Notes: generated by a model from the letters alone, not told the origin. Shown: positions 50,067 to 60,266, counted from the first letter of the stretch. The stretch: DNA of 64,000 bases from Streptomyces sp. NBC_00223 (GCF_036199905.1 NZ_CP108109.1:310001-374000); one strand, 5' to 3'. A program made the numbers and translations.

Positions 50067-51761
50067 GTGGGCACCACTCTCACCGCCGCCGCGCGGATCG
50101 CCGTCGTCCCCGACCCGGTGGGGTCGGGCGGCCGGCTGTGCCCGCTCGCCGACGACGGCACCCCCGCGGGCGCCGCGCACACCGTGCCCGACCTGGCCGC
50201 GGAGGTGGCCCGGCGGGAGGCGGCCGAGGGGCCGCGCTGGGTGTGGCCGGCCACCGACGAGCTGTATCCGTGGCTGCTCGACCGCGGCGCCGTACGGCTC
50301 GCCCGCTGCCATGACGTGAAGCTGGTCGAGTCACTGCTGCTCGCCCAGGAGAACAGACACGGCCGCCCCCGTTCGCTGGGCGCCGCCTGGGCCCGGCTGC
50401 GCGACCTGCCCGAGCCGCCCGACGCGCCGGAGTCCGGCGCGGACGACCAGCCCGTGCTGTTCGCCGCCGACCGGCACCATCTGCCGCCGGACACCGACCC
50501 GTTGACCGCGCTGATCGCCGTCCACGCCGAGCAGCAGCGCCGGATCGCCGCCGGAGAGCACCCGGACCGGATGAGGCTGCTGTGCGCCGCGGAGTCGGCG
50601 GGGGCGCTGGCCGCCGTGGAGATGGGGCGCGACGGCCTGCCGTGGAGCGCCGCCGTCCATGACGAGCTGCTGACCGGGCTGCTCGGCCCCCGCCCGTCCG
50701 GCGGCGCCCGGCCCGCGCTGCTCAACGAGCTGTCGCTGCGCGTCCAGGACGCGCTCGGCCGCCCGTTCAACCCGGACTCCCCCGCCCAGGTGCTGCCCGC
50801 CTTCGCCCGCGTCGGGGTGCGGCTGACCTCGACCCGCTCGCACGAGCTGCGCGGGGTCGACCACCCCGCCGCCGCGCTGCTGCTGCGGTACAAGGAGCTG
50901 TCCCGTATCCACGCCGCGCACGGCTGGGCGTGGCGGGAGTCCTGGGTGCGCGACGGCAGATTCCGGCCGGAGTACGTGGTGGGCGGTGTGGTCTCCGGGC
51001 GGTGGGCGACCCGCGGCGGCGGGGCGCTGCAGATCCCCCGGCTGCTGCGCTCGGCCGTGGTCGCCGACCCGGGGCACCGGCTGGTGGTCGCGGACGCGGG
51101 CCAGCTGGAGCCGCGGGTGCTGGCCGCGATGTCCGGCGACCCGGGGCTCGCCCGGGCGGCGGCCGCCGGGGACCTGTACGCGGCGCTGGCGCTCGACGCC
51201 TTCGCGGGCGACCGGCCGCGCGCGAAGATCGGGCTGCTCGCGGCGATGTACGGGCAGACCAGCGGCGAGGCGGGCCAGTTGCTCGCGGTGATGCGGCGCC
51301 GTTTCCCGGCCGCGCTGGCCCTGGTCGAGTCCGCGGCCCGGGTCGGCGAGGCGGGCGGCGTCGTACGGTCGCAGCTGGGCCGTACGTCCCCCATGCCGTC
51401 CGCCGAGCGCTTTCTCGACGAGAGCGCCGACCCGGAGGACGGCGCCGAGCCCGACCGGCGGGCGGCCCGCTCCTGGGGGCGGTTCACCCGCAACTTCGTG
51501 ATCCAGGCGAGCGCTTCCGACTGGGCGCTGGCCATGCTCGCCGCGCTGCGCCGCCGACTGACCGCCGTGGGTCCGGAGCCCCGGCTGGTGTTCTTCCAGC
51601 ACGACGAGGTGATCGTGCACACCCCGACCCCGCTCGCGGCCGCGGTCGAGGAGGCCGTGACGGCGGCGGGCGAGGAGGCCCGTCGGCTGGTCTTCGGCGC
51701 GACCCCGGTGCGGTTCCCGCTGGAGACGCATGCGGTGGAGTGCTACGCGGACGCGAAGTAG
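50067..51761 (+). CDS. DNA polymerase I-like protein (annotated type: bifunctional 3'-5' exonuclease/DNA polymerase)
   Basis: 564 residues from a GTG at 50067. The polymerase half has motif A VVADAGQLEPRVLAAMSGD (catalytic Asp), O-helix RAKIGLLAAMYGQTSGEAG with the dNTP-binding Arg and Lys but lacking the usual NFG, and motif C VFFQHDEVIVH. The N-terminal 170 residues occupy the place of the exonuclease but show no DxE motif I; HDVKLVESLLLAQ is the only recognisable remnant. The family is small compared with PolA (about 900 residues) and is common in Streptomyces; it may be a repair or translesion polymerase. Its start is not well supported by a ribosome site. Confidence 0.82.
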   Translation: MGTTLTAAARIAVVPDPVGSGGRLCPLADDGTPAGAAHTVPDLAAEVARREAAEGPRWVWPATDELYPWLLDRGAVRLARCHDVKLVESLLLAQENRHGRPRSLGAAWARLRDLPEPPDAPESGADDQPVLFAADRHHLPPDTDPLTALIAVHAEQQRRIAAGEHPDRMRLLCAAESAGALAAVEMGRDGLPWSAAVHDELLTGLLGPRPSGGARPALLNELSLRVQDALGRPFNPDSPAQVLPAFARVGVRLTSTRSHELRGVDHPAAALLLRYKELSRIHAAHGWAWRESWVRDGRFRPEYVVGGVVSGRWATRGGGALQIPRLLRSAVVADPGHRLVVADAGQLEPRVLAAMSGDPGLARAAAAGDLYAALALDAFAGDRPRAKIGLLAAMYGQTSGEAGQLLAVMRRRFPAALALVESAARVGEAGGVVRSQLGRTSPMPSAERFLDESADPEDGAEPDRRAARSWGRFTRNFVIQASASDWALAMLAALRRRLTAVGPEPRLVFFQHDEVIVHTPTPLAAAVEEAVTAAGEEARRLVFGATPVRFPLETHAVECYADAK

Positions 51762-51868
51762 ACCCCCGTACGGGCCCGGTGGCCCGGCCGCCGACCCGGA
51801 GTCGGAGCCGCGACCCGCAACCCCTGAGCCGCGACCCCGGCCCCCGAGCCCGCGAGCCCCGAACATGC

Positions 51869-51932
51869 CTCCGCTCCCCGGCCGCCGCGTGATTGCATCG
51901 CGGGAACCACGCCGCGCGGCCGGGGAGCGGAG
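51869..51932. terminator. Long bidirectional terminator hairpin
   Basis: A perfect 17-bp outer stem (51869-51885 with 51916-51932) encloses a 5-bp inner stem (51887-51891 with 51908-51912) and a 16-nt loop. It lies 17 bp beyond the GH18 stop and 108 bp beyond the polymerase stop, between convergent genes. Confidence 0.75.
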
Positions 51933-51948
51933 AGTCTCGGCCCCGGCC

Positions 51949-53334
51949 TCACCCGCCGTACTGGGCGAAGGTCCGGGTGAAGTCCCACGCCTGCTGCGAG
52001 ACTCCCGAGCACGTGTCGTCGTTCGGGTAGCCGGCGGCGCACGGCCGGTCCCGGTTGGCGGACCAGAAGGTCAGCCGGGCCAGGTGGTGCGCCTGCGCGT
52101 AGGCGAGGATCGTGCGGAAGTCGGCGACGGTGACGGTCTCGTTGTTGTCGGTGATGCCGTTCATCGACGAGATGCCGCTGTGCCGGTACGCCTGGTCGTC
52201 GCTGTAGCCGTAGGCACTCTTGAGGGCGTTCTTCAGGCCGTCGGCCGCCCGGGTGGTGAGCGTGCCCATGTTCTGGCCCGCGCCGCCGAAGTCGAACGGC
52301 ATGATCGTCCAGCTGTCGACGGTGAGCCCGGAGGCGGCCGCCTTGTTGATCAGACCGGTGTCGGGACCGCTCTGGCCGGTGCCGATGGTGACGTAGACGG
52401 CGATGCCCGGGTTGTTGGCCCTGACGGTCTTGAGCGCGTCGACCGTGCGCTGCTGGACGGTGCCGTTGCTGTAGGCGTCGGCCTCGATGTCGATGTCGAT
52501 GGCCTTGAGCCCGTAGGCGCTGATCACCTTCTGGTACGCGCCGGCGAGCGCGCTCGCGCTCGTGCAGGACTGCTCCAGCTTGTTGCCGCTGTAGCCGCCG
52601 AAGGACGGGATGACGTCCCCGCCGGCCGCGCGGATCTTGTTGATGGTGGACTGGTCCACGCCGCCGGTCAGCGCCCGGCCGCCGTCCCACTGCGGGTTGC
52701 AGGTGCCGTTGCTGAGGACGAAGGCGAGGGTGAACCACTTGACGCCGGTCGCGTTCATGATCGTCGTCGGGTCCGGCGGGTTGCCCCAGCCGTTGTAGAG
52801 GTACGGGGCCACGGCCTGCGCGCCGACGGCGGGCGGCGGGGTGGTCGGCGGGGTGCCGCCACCGCCGCCGGGCAGGGTCCACTTCTGGTTGGCGCCTCCG
52901 CCGCAGTCCCAGATCTGGAGCCGGGTGCCGTTGTCCGAGCTGGGGCCGGTGGCGTCGAGACACCGGCCGGAACCGGAGTTCACCAGCTGCCCGTTGCTCG
53001 CGGTCCACTTCTGCGCGTTGGTGCCGTTGCAGTCGTACAGCTGCACCTTGGTGCCGTTGGCGGTGCCGGCCGAGGTGACGTCCATGCACTTGCCGAGCGC
53101 GCGCAGCGAACCGTCGGAACTGACCGTCCACTGCTGGGCGGTGGTGCCGTTGCAGTCGTAGAGCTGGATCGCGGCGCCGTTGGCGGAGCTCGCGGCGGCC
53201 ACGTCGACGCACTTGCCGCCGTAGCCGGTGATCGCGCCGCTGGCGTCGGCGCCGGAGGCCTGGGTGACGGCGAAGAGGCCGAGGGTGCCCGCGGCGAGCG
53301 CCGCGGTGGCCAGGAGAGAGGTGGTTCGCTTCAT
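51949..53334 (-). CDS. Secreted GH18 chitinase-like enzyme with N-terminal CBM13 lectin domain
   Basis: 461 residues, ATG at 53334. A Sec signal (MKRTTSLLATAALAAGTLGL, cleaved after ASGADA) precedes a ricin-type beta-trefoil (about residues 32-160) with three QxW-type repeats: AAIQLYDCNGTTAQQW, KVQLYDCNGTNAQKW, RLQIWDCGGGANQKW. A Gly/Pro-Thr linker leads to a GH18 barrel with the catalytic motif AIDIDIEAD (about residue 280, DxDxE) and GDVIPSFGGYSG. It should cleave chitin or related GlcNAc polymers outside the cell. Its ATG shares one base with the stop of the upstream GH16 gene (TGATG), so the two are translationally coupled. Confidence 0.9.
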   Translation of the reverse strand: MKRTTSLLATAALAAGTLGLFAVTQASGADASGAITGYGGKCVDVAAASSANGAAIQLYDCNGTTAQQWTVSSDGSLRALGKCMDVTSAGTANGTKVQLYDCNGTNAQKWTASNGQLVNSGSGRCLDATGPSSDNGTRLQIWDCGGGANQKWTLPGGGGGTPPTTPPPAVGAQAVAPYLYNGWGNPPDPTTIMNATGVKWFTLAFVLSNGTCNPQWDGGRALTGGVDQSTINKIRAAGGDVIPSFGGYSGNKLEQSCTSASALAGAYQKVISAYGLKAIDIDIEADAYSNGTVQQRTVDALKTVRANNPGIAVYVTIGTGQSGPDTGLINKAAASGLTVDSWTIMPFDFGGAGQNMGTLTTRAADGLKNALKSAYGYSDDQAYRHSGISSMNGITDNNETVTVADFRTILAYAQAHHLARLTFWSANRDRPCAAGYPNDDTCSGVSQQAWDFTRTFAQYGG

Positions 53335-54641
53335 CAGCCGGTCACGGTCCACTTCTGGTTGGCGCCTCCGGTGCAGCTCCAGATCTGGAGCCGGGTGCCG
53401 TTGGCGGAGCTGTTGCCGGTCGCGTCGAGGCACTTGTTCGCCGCCGGGTTGACGATGTCGTGGGCGGCGGTGACGGTCCACTTCTGGGCGTTGGTCCCGT
53501 TGCAGTCGTAGAGCTGGACGGGGGTGCCGTCGGCGGTGCCGGCCGCGGCGACGTCCAGGCACTTGCCGAGCGCGCGCAGCGAGCCGTCCGAGCCGACCGT
53601 CCACTGCTGGGCGGCGGTGCCGTTGCAGTCGTAGAGCTGGATCGCGGCGCCGTTGGCGGTGTTCGCCGCGGCGACGTCGACGCACTTGCCCGCGATGCCG
53701 GTGATGGCGTGGCCGCCCCCGCCGGTGCCGCCGCCCGTGCCCCCGGTGCCGCCCCCGCTGTCGCTGGTGGTGACGTGCACGTAGTCCACGACGAGCTGCT
53801 GCGGGAAGGAGGTGCTGCCGTCGGGGTCGCCGGGCCAGTAGCCGCCCACGGCGAGGTTCATGATGATGTAGAAGGGGTGGTCGAAGACCCAGCGGTTGCC
53901 GTGCAGGTCGGCGGGGGTGCGGGTCTCGTAGACATGGCCGTCCACCGACCAGGAGATTGAGTTGGGCGCCCAGTCGACGGCGAAGGTGTGGAAGCCGTCG
54001 GAGAAGCTCTGGCCGTTGGGGAGGCTGTACCCGGCGCCGATGCCGTCCGAGCCGGAGTAGCCGGGGCCGTGGATGGTGCCGTGCACGCTGCCGGGCTCGA
54101 AGCCGACGTTCTCCATGATGTCGATCTCGCCGCTGTTGGGCCATCCGACGGAGCCGATGTCGTTGCCGAGCATCCAGAACGCGGGCCACATGCCCTGGCC
54201 GCGCGGCAGCTTCATCCGGGTCTCGAAGTGCCCGTAGGCCTGGGTGAACTTCTGCGGGGTGGACAGCCGCGCGGAGGTGTACTGACAGGTCCCGTACCAG
54301 CACTGGTAGTTGGCCGGGTTCTCCTTGCGGGCGGTGATCACCAGGTCGCCCTGGCCGTCGAGCGCGGCGTTGTGGGTGCCGCTGGTGTAGTACTCGCGCT
54401 CGTGGTTGTTCACGTTGTCACCGGTCTCGTAGCCCCACTTGGAGCTGTCGACCGCGCTGCCGGCCGGACCGTTGAAGTCGTCGGTGAAGGTCGCGGTGGC
54501 CGCCGCGGGCGCGGCGTCCACGGTGCCCGCCGGGTGGGGGGCGGCCGTCTGCTGGAGCCAGCCGCACATCAGCAGCGCGGCGGCGGCGAGCAGGGCGAGA
54601 GGGCGGGGTCGTACGCGTCGGATGGGGGGTGAGACCGACAT
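53334..54641 (-). CDS. Secreted GH16 beta-glucanase with C-terminal CBM13 lectin domain
   Basis: 435 residues from the ATG at 54641. A signal peptide (PLALLAAAALLMCGWLQQTA region) is followed by a GH16 domain with WPAFWMLGNDIGSVGWP and the catalytic GEIDIMENVG (about Glu171 and Glu176, ExDxxE), as in laminarinases. A Gly/Thr-rich linker GGGTGGTGGGTGGGG then leads to a ricin-type beta-trefoil (about residues 310-435) with QLYDCNGTAAQQW, QLYDCNGTNAQKW and QIWSCTGGANQKW. It probably degrades beta-1,3-glucans such as fungal wall polymers; together with the coupled GH18 chitinase this suggests fungal cell wall attack. Confidence 0.9.
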   Translation of the reverse strand: MSVSPPIRRVRPRPLALLAAAALLMCGWLQQTAAPHPAGTVDAAPAAATATFTDDFNGPAGSAVDSSKWGYETGDNVNNHEREYYTSGTHNAALDGQGDLVITARKENPANYQCWYGTCQYTSARLSTPQKFTQAYGHFETRMKLPRGQGMWPAFWMLGNDIGSVGWPNSGEIDIMENVGFEPGSVHGTIHGPGYSGSDGIGAGYSLPNGQSFSDGFHTFAVDWAPNSISWSVDGHVYETRTPADLHGNRWVFDHPFYIIMNLAVGGYWPGDPDGSTSFPQQLVVDYVHVTTSDSGGGTGGTGGGTGGGGHAITGIAGKCVDVAAANTANGAAIQLYDCNGTAAQQWTVGSDGSLRALGKCLDVAAAGTADGTPVQLYDCNGTNAQKWTVTAAHDIVNPAANKCLDATGNSSANGTRLQIWSCTGGANQKWTVTG

Positions 54642-54731
54642 GCCGGACTCCTCGGTCGGGACGGCGGAAAGCCAGGAACGGTCATGCTCCTGACAGACAG
54701 TGAGGGCGCAGTACACCCTCGGAGACTTACG

Positions 54732-54782
54732 TCACGTCTTAGTTCAGGACGTGATTTAAATGGCGTGGATGAGGGCCGTCAA
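54732..54782 (-). promoter_or_regulatory. GH16-GH18 operon promoter with overlapping palindrome
   Basis: Minus strand: -35 TTGACG (54777-54782), 18-bp spacer, -10 TAAATC (54753-54758). A perfect 7-bp inverted repeat TCACGTC (54732-54738) / GACGTGA (54748-54754), 9-bp centre, overlaps the -10 and the expected transcription start. The same layout recurs upstream of the GH30 gene. Confidence 0.65.
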
Positions 54783-54805
54783 TACTTCCGGCAAAGGTCT
54801 GTACC

Positions 54806-55783
54806 TTAAAGTTGGCGACGCCGCACCAGCACCGCCAGCACCACGACCCCCGGGATCAGCGGCAACCAGGCCGTGACCAGCCGGTAGCCGAGCACGGCGG
54901 AGGTCGCGGTGACCGCCGAGGCGCCGGCGGTCACCAGGGCCAGTCCGAGCGCCGCGTCGAGCGAGCCGAGCCCGGCCGGGGTGGGCAGCCAGCCGGTCGC
55001 GGTGCTCGCGCACAGATACGCCGCCACGACCCCGCTGACCGGGACCGGAGCGTGCACCGCGCGCATCACCGAGACCACCACCGCCGCGTGCATCGCGGGG
55101 AAGGCCAGCGAGCCGCCCCACAGCGCGGCGATCCGCGGCCGCATCCGGTGCAGCGCCCGTACGTCGTGCGCCACCGAGGCGGTGAACTCCCGCAGCCGGG
55201 AGCCCAGTCCGCGCGCGCAGCGGGTCAGCAGACAGCCGGCCGCCACGGCCACCAGCACGCCCGCCGCGATGAGCACCGGGTGGTCCGGCAGGTTCCGCCG
55301 CCCGTGCACGACCCGGCGGATGCTCAGCGCGCCGGGGAAGAGCGCGAGCACGGCGACCAGCAGCGCGACCCGGGCGATCACGGCTGCGGCCGCCCGGATC
55401 GCGAGCGCGGCGACCGCGCGGGTGGCGCTCAGGCCCCGGCGGACCAGGAAGCGCAGATTCACCGCGTTGCCGCCGAGCCCCGCGGGCAGGACGTGGTTGG
55501 CCGCCGAGGCGGCGAACTGCGCGGCCAGCAGCCCTCCCGCCGGCAGGCGTTCGACGACCGCGCCCTGCTGGGCGGCCGCCGCGCACACCCAGGTGAGGAA
55601 GGCGGCGCAGCAGGCCACCGTCAGCCACTCCCCGTCGGCTGCGCCGAGCCGCCGCGCGCTGGAGTCGATCAGCGACCACTCGCTCACCACGACCGCCGCG
55701 ACGACCACCACCGGCAGCACCACGGCCGCCGAGCGCACGGAGTTCCGCCGCCAGACGGCTCCCTCGTTGCGGGCGATCGACAC
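54806..55783 (-). CDS. Lysylphosphatidylglycerol synthase TM-region / UPF0104-type membrane protein
   Basis: 325 residues from a GTG at 55783 with GAGGAG upstream; the frame is open further but without support. About eight transmembrane helices are present, with the family's NHVLPAGLGGNAVNLRFLVRRG (quoted in part: LPAGLGGNAVNLRFL) and TGWLPTPAGLGSLDAALG patterns typical of the MprF/AglD-like flippase domain. The catalytic transferase domain of MprF is absent, so only lipid flipping or polyprenyl-linked transport is likely. The substrate is unknown. It lies upstream of the GH16 gene on the same strand, but the GH16 gene has its own promoter right after this stop. Confidence 0.8.
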   Translation of the reverse strand: MSIARNEGAVWRRNSVRSAAVVLPVVVVAAVVVSEWSLIDSSARRLGAADGEWLTVACCAAFLTWVCAAAAQQGAVVERLPAGGLLAAQFAASAANHVLPAGLGGNAVNLRFLVRRGLSATRAVAALAIRAAAAVIARVALLVAVLALFPGALSIRRVVHGRRNLPDHPVLIAAGVLVAVAAGCLLTRCARGLGSRLREFTASVAHDVRALHRMRPRIAALWGGSLAFPAMHAAVVVSVMRAVHAPVPVSGVVAAYLCASTATGWLPTPAGLGSLDAALGLALVTAGASAVTATSAVLGYRLVTAWLPLIPGVVVLAVLVRRRQL

Positions 55784-56148
55784 GGGCACTCCTCGGCGCG
55801 TGGGGCCCACCCGCGCCGCAGCCCGGGCCGGGCGGCGCGGGCCGTCGGCAGGGTGGAAAAGGGCAGGGAAGGACGTGCGGAACAGGCGGGGGCACCGGCG
55901 ACAAAGCGGGACCTGCGCCGATTCGTCCAGAGTAGGCGGCGCCGCCCCCGGGAGCCGCGCGGCGCACCGCCGTCCGGGACGATCACCCGCACCGGCCGGG
56001 CACGTACGCCCGCAACAACCCTGCCCCGCCCGGCCCGCGGGCATGCCGAGTCGCCGGTCCGCGACGAACGCGGACCGGCGACTGCTTCCTTCAGCGCGGC
56101 CGGGCGGCGGTGAGAGGTCCGCCCCCGGCCGTCCGGGGGGTCAGTGGA
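55784..56148. other. Intergenic region of 365 bp
   Basis: No supported gene lies here. The half nearer GH30 contains a strong hairpin (56049-56083). The half nearer the membrane-protein gene is very GC-rich with GGGCCC-like words and holds its ribosome site at the edge; I did not find a clear -35/-10 pair. Confidence 0.7.
56049..56083. terminator. Terminator hairpin after the GH30 gene
   Basis: A perfect 15-bp stem (56049-56063 with 56069-56083) around an ACGAA loop, starting 66 bp beyond the GH30 stop. It isolates the GH30 gene from the downstream membrane-protein gene on the same strand. Confidence 0.75.
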
Positions 56149-58068
56149 TCAGGCGGCGGGCGCCTGCCACTGCTGGTTGGCGGCACCGGTGCAGTCCCAG
56201 ATCTGCAGCCGGGTGCCGTTGGCCGAACTGGGCCCCGTCGCGTCGAGGCAGCGGCCCGACTGGGGGTTGACCAGGGTGTTGTTCGAACCTCGCGTCCATT
56301 GCTGCGAACCGGTGCCGTTGCAGTCGTACAGCTGCACCTGGGTGCCGTTGGCCGTGCCCGCGCTGGCGACGTCCAGGCACTTGCCGAGCGCCTGGAAGGT
56401 CGTGCCGGAGGCGGTCCACTGCTGGGCGGCGGTGCCGTTGCAGTCGTAGAGCTGGATCGCGGTGCCGTTGGCGGAGCTCGCGGCGGCGACGTCCACGCAC
56501 TTGCCGCCGTAGCCGGTGATCGTGCCGGTGTGGCCGGAGCCGGGGTTGCTGCCGCCGCCGCCGTTCGCCTGGGTGCCGGACCAGGTGAAGGTGGCCGAGG
56601 CGCCGCCGGGGACGGAGTACGCGAAGGACTCGTTGCCCCAGTTGACGCGCAACTGCTGGGCGGAGGAGGACTCGTTGTAGGCGACCAGGGCCTTGGAGCC
56701 GTCCGGGTTGCGCCAGGCGACGTTGCGGATCGTGGAGTTGTCGTTGGAGGAGATCCGGTAGGCGCCCGGCTTCACGAACTTGGTGAGCTGGCCCATCGTG
56801 TAGTACTCGACGGTGTAGTCGACCTGCCCGCTGCGGCTGTCGCCGTTGTGCACGGTGACCAGGCCGGTGCAGGTGCCGCAGCCGCCGTTGTGCGGACCCA
56901 TGTTCTGGTCGACCGCCAGGCTCCACTTGATCCAGCTCTGGCCCCAGTTGCGGGTGTAGTCGATCAGGTTCTCCATGTCCTCCTTCTGCTGGTTGCCGAT
57001 CCAGGTGCCACCGGAGTGCTCGGTGTCGAAGGCGGGGACGCCGGGGTACTTGTTGTGGATCGTGGTCTGCTCGGAGACATTGCCCCCGTAGCCGTGCCAG
57101 GCGATGCCGCCGAAGTTGGAGTCGCTGCGGATGGCCGCGTCGTCCACGGTGGGGGCGCCGTAGCCGTCGTAGGTGTCCCAGTTCCAGTCCAGCGCCAGCA
57201 CCTTGGTGGACAGACCCGCCGTGTGCAGCGCGGGCAGCAGGTTGGTCTTGGTGAAGTACGCCAGCCCGGAGCCGTTCCACTGCGCCGAGGGGTAACCGCC
57301 GCAGCAGGTGGGCTCGTTCTGCACGGTGACGTAGTCGATCGGCACGCCCTGCGCCTGGTACGCCTGGAGGTACTTGACGAAGTACTGCGCGTAGGCGGCG
57401 TAGTACTGCGACTGGAGCCAGCCCTGGCTGTAGGCGCCGCTGTCCTTCATCCACGGCGGCGGGGTCCAGGGGGTGCCCATGACCTTGACGTTGGGGTTGA
57501 GCTGGCGGGCCTGCTTGGTGAGCGGGACCACGTCGGCCAGGTCGTGGGAGATGGAGAAGTGCGCGAGCGTCGGGTCGGTCTGCCCGGCCGGCATGTCGTC
57601 GTAGGTGTAGTTGCCGCGGGCCAGGTCGGAGGCGCCCATCGGGTTGCGCAGGAAGCCGACACCGATGCCGTTGACCGGGTCGAAGAGCTTCTGCATGACC
57701 GTGTTGCGGGTCGAGGCGGACAGCGCGCCGCTGGAGTTGAGCAGCCAGGCGGCGGTGTCGGTGAACGAGGCGCCGCCGCCGGTGAACTGCTGGTAGGTGG
57801 TGTTCTCGTCCACGGTGACGTTCTGGCCGGAACCGCCCGTGCCCGAGGCGAAGGAGACCGGGGCCTGCTGTTCGAGGCCCTTGACGACGTTGCGGCCGCC
57901 GGAGTCGTTGGTGGTGGTGAGGTAGACCTGGACGCTCTCGCCCGCGGCGTGCGCGACGGTCGGTACGGCCAGCATGGGGGTGATCGCCGCCGCGGCGGCG
58001 GTGAGCACGCCGACGAGCGTGCGCCGGAGGTGGAATCCGCCCGCTCGTGGGCGGGTTGCTGAGCTCAT
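56149..58068 (-). CDS. Secreted GH30 glycosidase with C-terminal CBM13 lectin domain
   Basis: 639 residues from the ATG at 58068 with AAGGG upstream. A twin-arginine-like signal (HLRRTLVGVLTAAAAAITP, cleaved after AHA) directs export. The GH30 barrel shows NPMGASDLARGNYTYDD, KVMGTPWTPPPWMK, the acid/base in VTVQNEPTCCGG (about Glu252) and the nucleophile in FDTEHSGGTW (about Glu349). Substrate in the family ranges over beta-1,6-glucan, beta-1,6-galactan, glucuronoxylan and glucosylceramide; the context with GH16 and GH18 fits beta-1,6-glucan. A Gly/Ser linker leads to a ricin-type beta-trefoil (residues about 510-639). It lies downstream of a LacI regulator gene. Confidence 0.9.
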   Translation of the reverse strand: MSSATRPRAGGFHLRRTLVGVLTAAAAAITPMLAVPTVAHAAGESVQVYLTTTNDSGGRNVVKGLEQQAPVSFASGTGGSGQNVTVDENTTYQQFTGGGASFTDTAAWLLNSSGALSASTRNTVMQKLFDPVNGIGVGFLRNPMGASDLARGNYTYDDMPAGQTDPTLAHFSISHDLADVVPLTKQARQLNPNVKVMGTPWTPPPWMKDSGAYSQGWLQSQYYAAYAQYFVKYLQAYQAQGVPIDYVTVQNEPTCCGGYPSAQWNGSGLAYFTKTNLLPALHTAGLSTKVLALDWNWDTYDGYGAPTVDDAAIRSDSNFGGIAWHGYGGNVSEQTTIHNKYPGVPAFDTEHSGGTWIGNQQKEDMENLIDYTRNWGQSWIKWSLAVDQNMGPHNGGCGTCTGLVTVHNGDSRSGQVDYTVEYYTMGQLTKFVKPGAYRISSNDNSTIRNVAWRNPDGSKALVAYNESSSAQQLRVNWGNESFAYSVPGGASATFTWSGTQANGGGGSNPGSGHTGTITGYGGKCVDVAAASSANGTAIQLYDCNGTAAQQWTASGTTFQALGKCLDVASAGTANGTQVQLYDCNGTGSQQWTRGSNNTLVNPQSGRCLDATGPSSANGTRLQIWDCTGAANQQWQAPAA

Positions 58069-58136
58069 GGTCGTTGCCCTTCTCGGCAGTGGCATGGGCC
58101 TGACATGACCAACCGTGCAGCGAGGGGGTCCGCACG

Positions 58137-58205
58137 CTTGTTTCACTACTTGTTTCACGACTTATATCGCGACGTGATTTAACTAGCGCGCCATGGGGCC
58201 GTCAA
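58137..58205 (-). promoter_or_regulatory. GH30 promoter with palindrome and tandem repeats
   Basis: Minus strand: -35 TTGACG (58200-58205), 18-bp spacer, -10 TAAATC (58176-58181), then TCACGTC and GTCGTGA with a 9-bp centre, one mismatch from a perfect palindrome. Downstream GTGAAACAAG occurs twice (58137-58146 and 58149-58158, 12-bp period). The first part matches the GH16 promoter closely; the second repeat is specific to GH30. Confidence 0.65.
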
Positions 58206-58246
58206 GATGCCGGACGGGGTTCACAACCGTGAAACACAATGAAACA

Positions 58247-58276
58247 GGCCCGACGTCATGGGACATACGTCGGGCC
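58247..58276 (-). terminator. Terminator hairpin after the LacI gene
   Basis: A perfect 10-bp stem (58247-58256 with 58267-58276) with a 10-nt loop, 46 bp beyond the LacI stop. On the minus strand it is followed by a T-rich TGTTTCATTGTGTTT stretch, as in a classical terminator. Confidence 0.7.
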
Positions 58277-58322
58277 GTGCGGGGTGACCTGCGGAGCAGT
58301 GGTCCAGACCGTTGAAAACCGG

Positions 58323-59345
58323 TCAGCGGGGGGCGGGCGCGGTGCTGCCGCGCGGCACCAGCGCCGGCGGTTCGAGCACGATGTCGGCCACGTCCGCGCC
58401 GCCGACGAGCTCAAGCAGCGCGCCGGCGGCCCGCTCCCCGTACTCCGGCACCCGGCGGCTGACCGCGGTGAGGGCGGGGTGCACCAGCCGGCACAGCTCA
58501 CTGTCGTCCCAGGCGACCAGGGAGAGCTGGCCGGGCACGGACACGCCCATCTCCTGGGTGACGCTGAGCGCGGCGACGGCCATCACGTCGTTGTCGTAGA
58601 TGATCGCCGTGGGCCGGGCTGAGCCGGAGAGCAGCCGGCGGGTGGCGCGGGCGCCGTCCTCGCCGGTGTAGTCGGTGTGGACGCAGCGCACGCCGTCCAG
58701 GCCGAGTTCGGCCGCGGCGGCGTCGAAGGCCTCACCGCGTTCACGGGTGTGCACGAAGTGCGCGGGACCGGCCACCCGGGCGATCCTGCGGTGGCCCATC
58801 GCGGTCAGATACGCCAGCGTCTCGCGTACGGCGGCGCCGTCGTTGATCCACACCGACGGCACTCCGGAGGCGCCCGCCGCGTGGCCGACCACCACGGCGG
58901 GCAGGCCGAGTTCGCCGAGCAGCGCGATCCGCGGGTCATCCTCGCGCAGGTCCACCAGCAGCACGCCGTCCACCCGGCGCTCGCCCCACCAGCGGCGGTA
59001 GGCGGCCTCCTCGGCGCCGGCGTCCTCGGTGACCTGGAGCAGCAGCGCGGTGCCGGTGGCCGCGAGCCCCGCCTCGACGCCGGAGATCAGCTGCATGAAG
59101 AACGGCTCGATGCCCAGCACCCAGGCCGGCCGGTCCACGACCAGGCCGATCGCCCCGGACCGCCCGTCGGACAGGGCGCGGGCGGCGCTGCTGGGATGCC
59201 AGCCCATCCGGGCGGCGATCTCCACGATCCGCTCCCGGGTCTGCTCCGAGACTCCCGCCTTGCCGTTGAGGGCGTAGGACACCGCGCCCTTGGAGACGCC
59301 TGCGGCCTCGGCGATGTCGGCGATGGTGGGGCGCTTCAGGGGCAT
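58323..59345 (-). CDS. LacI family transcriptional regulator
   Basis: 340 residues from the ATG at 59345. The N-terminal HTH and hinge are classic: RPTIADIAEAAGVSKGAVSYALNGK (quoted in part: TIADIAEAAGVSKGAVSYAL) followed by SSAARALSDGRSGAIGLVV. The C-terminal periplasmic-binding-type domain has PTAIIYDNDVMAVAALSVTQ and GVSVPGQLSLVAWDDSELCR (quoted in part: QLSLVAWDDSELC). It probably senses an oligosaccharide and represses glycosidase genes; the GH30 gene lies 254 bp downstream. A TCAACCGGTTCA palindrome upstream may serve autoregulation. Confidence 0.92.
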   Translation of the reverse strand: MPLKRPTIADIAEAAGVSKGAVSYALNGKAGVSEQTRERIVEIAARMGWHPSSAARALSDGRSGAIGLVVDRPAWVLGIEPFFMQLISGVEAGLAATGTALLLQVTEDAGAEEAAYRRWWGERRVDGVLLVDLREDDPRIALLGELGLPAVVVGHAAGASGVPSVWINDGAAVRETLAYLTAMGHRRIARVAGPAHFVHTRERGEAFDAAAAELGLDGVRCVHTDYTGEDGARATRRLLSGSARPTAIIYDNDVMAVAALSVTQEMGVSVPGQLSLVAWDDSELCRLVHPALTAVSRRVPEYGERAAGALLELVGGADVADIVLEPPALVPRGSTAPAPR

Positions 59346-59466
59346 GCGGCCTCGGAGGTGGCGGGGCCCGCTCGGCGGGCCGTGATCTGCTGATCGGCCC
59401 GCACACCTTAACAACGCTGAACCGGCCCGGGTACGGCGCCCACCCATTCGGGTCGAACGCGTGCGA

Positions 59467-59478
59467 TCAACCGGTTCA
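59467..59478. promoter_or_regulatory. LacI-type operator-like palindrome
   Basis: TCAACCGGTTCA with the perfect core AACCGGTT and central CG lies about 120 bp upstream of the lacI start; TGAACCGG recurs as a half-site near 59417. LacI-family operators are even palindromes with a central CG. Whether the adjacent LacI protein binds is inferred. Confidence 0.4.
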
Positions 59479-59525
59479 GGACCCCCCTCCGCCTCACAGA
59501 GCGCATCCGTGGCCGCCCCCGCGGA

Positions 59526-60266
59526 TCAGCCGCGGACGGCCGAGATCTCCAGCCGTACGTAGTCCACCACCGGCTCGGCCAGCCGCCCGGCGACCGCCCG
59601 TACGAAGGGCTCGCGCTCGTCGTCGGCCAGCGCGTCCAGATAGGGGCCGAGGATGACGGTGGCCAGGAACGCCTCCAGTTGCTCGCCGCGTTCGAACCTG
59701 GCCGGGTCGGGCCGCAGCCGTACGTCGATGTCGGTGAACCCGGCGCCGGCCAGCCGCTCCCGGGTGTCCTCGACGCCCGCGAACCGCCAGTCGTCGCGCT
59801 TGCCGCCCCCCACGTCGGCGATGGCCGCGTCGACCGCCGCGATGTTGCCGTACCCGCCGCACTCGGTGACCAGCCGGGCGCCGGGGCGCATCCGGGCGGC
59901 GAGCGAGGAGTAGAGCGCCGCGTGGTCGTCGATCCAGTGGAAGGCGGCGACGCTGAACACCGCGTCCACCTCGCCGTCGAACGGCAGCGGCCCGGTCAGG
60001 TCGGCGTACACGACCTCGACCCGGTCCAGCCGCCCGGCCAGCCGGTCGCGCAGCTGGTCCAGCATGCGGACGGAACCGTCCACGGCGACCACCCGTCCGT
60101 CCGGCAGCCGGTCCAGCAGGCCCGCCGTGTCGCGGCCGGTGCCGCAGCCCGCGTCCAGCACCCGTTCGTCGCCCCGCAGCGGCAGCCGCCCGAGGGTGCG
60201 CTTCCCCCATCCGAGATGCGGCAGCGGCAGGGAGTCGTACGTCTTGGCGTCCCATTCCCGGGGCAT
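59526..60266 (-). CDS. Class I SAM-dependent methyltransferase
   Basis: 246 residues from the ATG at 60266 with GGGAG 5 nt upstream. SAM-binding motif I VLDAGCGTGRDTAGLL (about residues 36-51), the acidic end of strand 2 VVAVDGSVRMLDQL and motif III-like VFSVAAFHWIDDHAALYSSLA place it with the Methyltransf_11/trans-aconitate methyltransferase (Tam)-like group, which the opening REWDAKTYDSLPLPHLGWG supports. The substrate is unknown. It is a single gene upstream of no operon partner; the enoyl-CoA-hydratase-family gene upstream on the same strand is 114 bp away. Confidence 0.86.
   Translation of the reverse strand: MPREWDAKTYDSLPLPHLGWGKRTLGRLPLRGDERVLDAGCGTGRDTAGLLDRLPDGRVVAVDGSVRMLDQLRDRLAGRLDRVEVVYADLTGPLPFDGEVDAVFSVAAFHWIDDHAALYSSLAARMRPGARLVTECGGYGNIAAVDAAIADVGGGKRDDWRFAGVEDTRERLAGAGFTDIDVRLRPDPARFERGEQLEAFLATVILGPYLDALADDEREPFVRAVAGRLAEPVVDYVRLEISAVRG

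Follow-up and report, generated by a model that had tools for sequence, protein, structure and literature searches.

The 64,000-nucleotide stretch of Streptomyces sp. NBC_00223 analysed here (GCF_036199905.1 NZ_CP108109.1:310001-374000; the window) carries two promoters, one before the genes for a GH16 glucanase and a GH18 glycosidase and one before a GH30 gene, that share a conserved inverted repeat over the -10 element and the probable start site. The same repeat lies beside a ROK-family regulator gene elsewhere in the genome, and across the Streptomycetaceae the site and this gene are distributed together. Our data make it likely that the two promoters belong to a beta-1,3/1,6-glucan regulon, which an uncharacterised ROK protein would repress at this predicted operator until relieved by a beta-gluco-oligosaccharide. 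An earlier note on this DNA had named the LacI-family protein encoded next to GH30 as the common regulator. That choice is probably wrong, and the ROK protein is a strong candidate instead.

Results

On the minus strand, the GH16 promoter reads TTGACG-N17-TTAAATCACGTCCTGAACTAAGACGTGA and the GH30 promoter reads TTGACG-N17-TTAAATCACGTCGCGATATAAGTCGTGA. Re-reading of this strand confirmed what the earlier note had described: a common TTGACG, -10 block and palindrome, identity at 26 of 34 bases when the two sequences are set side by side and counted from TAAATC onward, and unlike spacers between the boxes. Its 18-bp spacer with a -10 of TAAATC is one possible reading, but the sequence also allows TTAAAT with a 17-bp spacer. 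A generic sigma-70 scan reported neither promoter. The search for an RNA element gave no Rfam match anywhere in 51500-60000.

The conserved element is TTAAATCACGNC-N2-GA-N2-TAAG, and it overlaps the -10 and the start site. The part common to the sites is TTAAATCA-CGNCN-NGANNTAAG, and the ideal inverted repeat is TTAAWTCA-N5-TGAWTTAA. The palindrome noticed earlier, TCACGTC-N9-G[A/T]CGTGA, is really present at both promoters, but it is off register with respect to this repeat and its outer arm is not kept. The arm (nCGTGA after TAAG) was found at 6 of 9 GH16 sites, 14 of 23 GH30 sites, 3 of 26 sites before solute-binding protein (SBP) genes and none of the 7 other sites. TCACGTC-N9-GACGTGA was rejected as the operator because its outer arm is unconserved beyond some GH16 and GH30 promoters. 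The right half of the repeat, GANNTAAG, is present in 67 of the 69 collected sites. TTGAC was found upstream in all of 37 sites that had been collected without requiring a -35 element, at a distance of 17 bp (33 sites) or 18 bp (4 sites). Hence the -10 and the probable start fall within the repeat, and the position of the element before the glucanase genes argues for the earlier idea of a common control element over the start.

The pattern TTGACG-N17-TTAAATCACGTC, with three or fewer mismatches, matched only three places in the 7.96-Mb genome, namely the GH16 promoter, the GH30 promoter and G000:C1:1355418-1355452, and its reversed control had zero matches in the same genome. The core TTAAATCACGNCNNGANNTAAG has exactly three perfect copies, at GH16, at GH30 and in the intergenic region of the ROK and SBP genes, and one or two mismatches added no further genome sites. 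About 1e-5 perfect copies are expected under an independent-base model, the core having been defined partly from two of the three sites. The third site is 1 Mb away and lies between the ROK-family regulator gene and a divergent operon for an ABC solute-binding protein, two permeases and a GH1 beta-glucosidase. This site and those found across the family point to a regulon that extends beyond the GH16/GH30 locus.

The regulator has a ROK domain (PF00480, 4.4e-50) and an N-terminal helix-turn-helix (MarR_2 winged-helix model, residues 17-61, 1.8e-6). Its alignment with Lmo0178, Mlc and NagC-like regulators begins at residue 7-16, and among solved structures Lmo0178 is its best relative. The zinc motif typical of ROK regulators, CxCGxxGCxE, reads CRCGSRGCLE here and is nearly invariant in 12 relatives. 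The closest solved relative of the transporter binding protein is Lin1841. Two further features of the transporter promoters were seen in Actinacidiphila. Of the 26 promoters, 16 have a second inverted repeat, TCACTTCCTGAAGCGA (L005:1559 and equivalents), about 35 bp past the start of the operator. The transporter spacer, CCACCTTTTCTCACAAG (L005:1501-1523), hardly varies within the genus, in contrast to the spacers of GH16 and GH30, and perhaps belongs to the divergent ROK promoter or to some other site.

The promoter form was found in 34 of the 35 genomes of the genus (Actinacidiphila, going by locus names). Among 395 Streptomycetaceae genomes, the core occurs at two or fewer mismatches in 241, the reversed pattern matching very rarely, and a ROK ortholog (E<=1e-90) occurs in 266. 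Both are present in 239 genomes and neither in 127; the 29 discordant genomes comprise 27 with the ROK gene only and 2 with the site only. The gene and the site each occur in the same 13 of 17 genera, and within each of the genera g2, g7, g8 and g13 related genomes either carry the pair or lack both.

The site is also physically linked to the ROK gene. In 80 named ROK loci (1.4 Mb), 27 of the 28 perfect matches to TTANNTCA-N5-TGANNTAA lie within about 270 bp before the ROK start, and 9 of these 27 are outside the Streptomycetaceae, in Actinomadura, Acrocarpospora and Planomonospora. Where the ROK gene stands apart from the transporter (G298 and G284), the site is still about 75-105 bp upstream of ROK. 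In Kibdelosporangium, Kutzneria and Amycolatopsis, GH16, GH30 and/or GH18 directly follow the ROK gene, and in Micromonospora GH30 and GH1 do so. In four Pseudonocardiales loci (L167, L175, L189 and L193), sites of the TGGTCTAGACC(A) type or closely similar ones precede GH16, at about 10.3-10.6 kb, which suggests chitin-linked (DasR-type) control of the glucanases there.

In a survey of 40 site contexts, the genes found behind the sites were GH30, GH16 (commonly with GH18 next), the ROK/SBP-P1-P2-GH1 genes (P1 and P2 being the permeases), GH3 with CBM11, and GH55. A few sites stand before genes of another sort, for a ThuA-ricin protein and a beta-propeller protein. The GH55 targets match the SacteLam55A structures 4pew/4pex, and in G278 the site separates the SBP operon from a GH55 gene whose product scores 1021 bits against 4pew. 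The GH18 ATG of the window overlaps the GH16 stop codon (TGATG), and the two genes are therefore probably transcribed together, in agreement with the earlier inclusion of GH18 under common control. The GH16-GH18 order recurs in other genomes, where GH18 is 77-88% identical. The best NCBIfam match of GH30 is endo-1,6-beta-glucanase NF053856 (8.7e-85, under its curated cut-off). Coordinates are listed in Table 1.

Table 1. Promoter elements and genes of the predicted regulon, with features adjoining GH30 (window positions unless a contig is given)
Feature	Position	Strand	Basis or remark
GH16-GH18 promoter -35 element TTGACG	54777..54782	minus	sequence; TTGAC spacing kept at collected sites
Predicted ROK operator of GH16, TTAAATCACGTCCTGAACTAAG, holding -10 and probable start	54738..54759	minus	perfect core match; kept before GH16 within genus
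Outer palindrome TCACGTC-N9-GACGTGA at GH16	54732..54754	minus	present; outer arm not conserved across regulon
GH30 promoter -35 element TTGACG	58200..58205	minus	sequence and genome pattern search
Predicted ROK operator of GH30, TTAAATCACGTCGCGATATAAG	58161..58182	minus	perfect core match; kept before GH30 across genera
Outer palindrome TCACGTC-N9-GTCGTGA at GH30	58155..58177	minus	sequence
GH16 secreted glucanase, C-terminal ricin-type lectin domain	53334..54641	minus	Pfam PF00722 2.1e-30, PF00652 1.2e-31
GH18 glycosidase, N-terminal ricin-type lectin domain	51949..53334	minus	Pfam ricin 3.1e-30; GH18 2.3e-4, under curated cut-off
GH30 secreted enzyme with ricin-type lectin domain	56149..58068	minus	Pfam PF02055 5.7e-32; PDB 5ngk 1.8e-63
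ROK-family regulator gene	G000:C1:1354069-1355367; L035:6067-7368	minus on G000:C1	Pfam PF00480
LacI-family regulator beside GH30	58323..59351	minus	Pfam LacI 9.1e-14, Peripla_BP_3 8.3e-33
Two TGTTTCA direct repeats upstream of GH30 promoter	58230..58246	minus	at -64 and -54 relative to start of operator
Two GTGAAACA direct repeats downstream of GH30 operator	58139..58158	minus	offsets +24, +36

A DasR-like site, AACGGTCTGGACCACT, lies between LacI and GH30 (58313-58298, minus strand). It agrees at 13 of 16 positions with the dre consensus. DasR was rejected as the common regulator, since this dre-like site near GH30, despite its score, is patchy in the genus.

Discussion

In the proposed mechanism, a ROK dimer would bind the inverted repeat over the -10 and the start site and would block RNA polymerase. 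A beta-gluco-oligosaccharide freed from beta-1,3/1,6-glucan would enter the cell through the regulon's own ABC transporter and would bind the sugar domain of ROK, which would then leave the operator. In the window genome the regulon would comprise GH16-GH18, GH30 and the divergent ROK/SBP-permease-permease-GH1 locus. By virtue of this membership, secreted enzymes, uptake and intracellular hydrolysis would rise together. The placement of the sites and their co-occurrence with the ROK gene fit binding of the palindrome by this protein. We infer ROK binding of the site, repression and the identity of the inducer, and repression by occlusion is read from the anatomy of the promoters.

Several points weigh against this proposal. 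ROK regulators are also able to activate. The nominal Fisher p value for the co-occurrence of ROK and site, 3e-73, is uncorrected for phylogeny. The 27 ROK-only genomes have the gene without a site at two or fewer mismatches; perhaps they reflect drift of the motif, TTAACTCACGTCCTAAATTAAG types already counting two mismatches. The motif has diverged or is not evident in the Pseudonocardiales ROK-enzyme clusters and in Micromonospora, although a dedicated motif search was not made in the Pseudonocardiales loci L167, L175, L189 and L193. Lin1841, the closest solved relative of the SBP, binds beta-1,2-gluco-oligosaccharides (PMC12369401), while beta-1,3 and beta-1,6 glucan are the substrates that the secreted enzymes indicate.

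It is unlikely that the ROK protein binds the site but activates, or that it is a glucose-sensing catabolite regulator and not a beta-glucan-specific repressor. The mode of action does vary among ROK proteins, and BglR of Thermotoga responds to cellobiose and glucose (PMC3750489), so the effector may be unspecific. However, an operator that covers the -10 and the start site suits repression better than activation, and the identified targets mostly serve beta-glucan use and not general sugar use. Instead of a repressor operator, the block might be a promoter (TTGACG plus TTAAATCACG) recognised by an alternative sigma factor. The fixed distance of 17-18 bp between TTGAC and the TTAAAT(CACG) block in nearly all sites would fit this, as would the failure of the generic sigma-70 scan to call these promoters. 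The downstream half GANNTAAG, however, which lies beyond the -10, is conserved at nearly every site and completes an inverted repeat, and the regulator and the sites are gained and lost together, with a site just upstream of the ROK gene. A sigma factor promoter is thus very improbable.

We give equally little credence to binding of the common palindrome by the LacI-family protein with repression of GH16, GH18 and GH30. LacI and GH30 are neighbours in the window, as they are in most Actinacidiphila genomes, and the common element is palindromic, like LacI-family operators. Yet gene and site dissociate both ways. At E<=1e-100 a LacI ortholog is absent from Actinacidiphila G010 and G014, which retain perfect GH16 sites, whereas G018 still has LacI but no longer has GH30, GH16 or the sites of that locus. 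In other genera the site is present at GH30 promoters that have no neighbouring LacI gene, the third genome site is at ROK/SBP and not near LacI, and it is ROK, not LacI, that tracks the site and adjoins it. Better candidates for LacI sites are the GH30-specific TGTTTCA and GTGAAACA repeats. They stand at fixed offsets at the GH30 promoters of LacI-bearing Actinacidiphila genomes (plus G009) and are absent at GH16 and SBP promoters, and other lineages lack them at GH30 as well. They could be a separate operator through which LacI controls GH30 locally, although G009 lacks LacI and yet keeps most of them.

A regulon under the ROK protein would have parallels in known systems. In Streptomyces, the LacI-family repressor CebR alone controls secreted glucanases, an ABC transporter and a GH1 beta-glucosidase. 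The regulatory logic of this cellulose/cello-oligosaccharide regulon is the same as that proposed here, but CebR belongs to a different family, has a different operator and serves beta-1,4 substrates. CebR is cited as a regulator in PMC12772271. The closest precedent is Thermotoga maritima BglR, a ROK repressor of the lamA laminarinase, a beta-glucosidase and cellobiose/laminaribiose ABC transporters, with a site tested in vitro (PMC3750489). As with BglR, the ROK gene here has the same operator as laminarinase-type GH16/GH55, GH30 and SBP-P1-P2-GH1 genes; the likeness is one of gene content and regulator family. The Thermotoga genes form a single operon that includes the regulator gene, whereas here the GH16-GH18 and GH30 promoters are scattered, with GH55 and GH3 in addition in relatives.

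CsnR and RokB are likewise ROK-family proteins of Streptomyces, and CsnR represses a secreted polysaccharide hydrolase (chitosanase). Their published sites, CCTCTTCTGGTAGGAAACTTTCCTATCAGT for CsnR and a TVCVT centre with A-rich edges for RokB (PMC4856308), differ from the motif found here. The S. griseus beta-1,2-glucan cluster SGR_2422-2427 resembles the transporter operon in having a GH1 beta-glucosidase beside an ABC transporter whose SBP resembles Lin1841 (PMC12369401). However, its gene order and neighbours differ (GH193 and an esterase in S. griseus), and that paper mentions no ROK gene. Identity of the transporter operon with this cluster is thus unsupported by gene order. In the open-access literature, subscription papers being outside the scope, no description of the present regulon was found. 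The proposed regulon is of an already known type, and the finding is larger than first observed.

As the earlier note remarked, GH16, GH18 and GH30 enzymes are consistent with digestion of fungal or yeast walls. Fungal walls are attacked by glucanases that streptomycetes secrete. Streptomyces lavendulae attacking yeast induces beta-glucanase genes, according to a 2026 study whose available part names no regulator for them (PMC13170338). With one candidate regulator gene and one operator, in more than 200 genomes, the question is reduced to a single knockout and a gel shift. The operator would be useful for annotating transporters and glycosidases of unknown substrate, and operator and regulator could serve to raise beta-1,3/1,6-glucanase production. 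A wider role is proposed tentatively, at somewhat less than an even chance. The ROK protein may be an ancestral master repressor of fungal-wall beta-glucan digestion in the Streptomycetaceae and several other actinomycete orders, which would control the glucanase part of the Streptomyces response to yeast prey and would place GH18 under the same beta-glucan signal.

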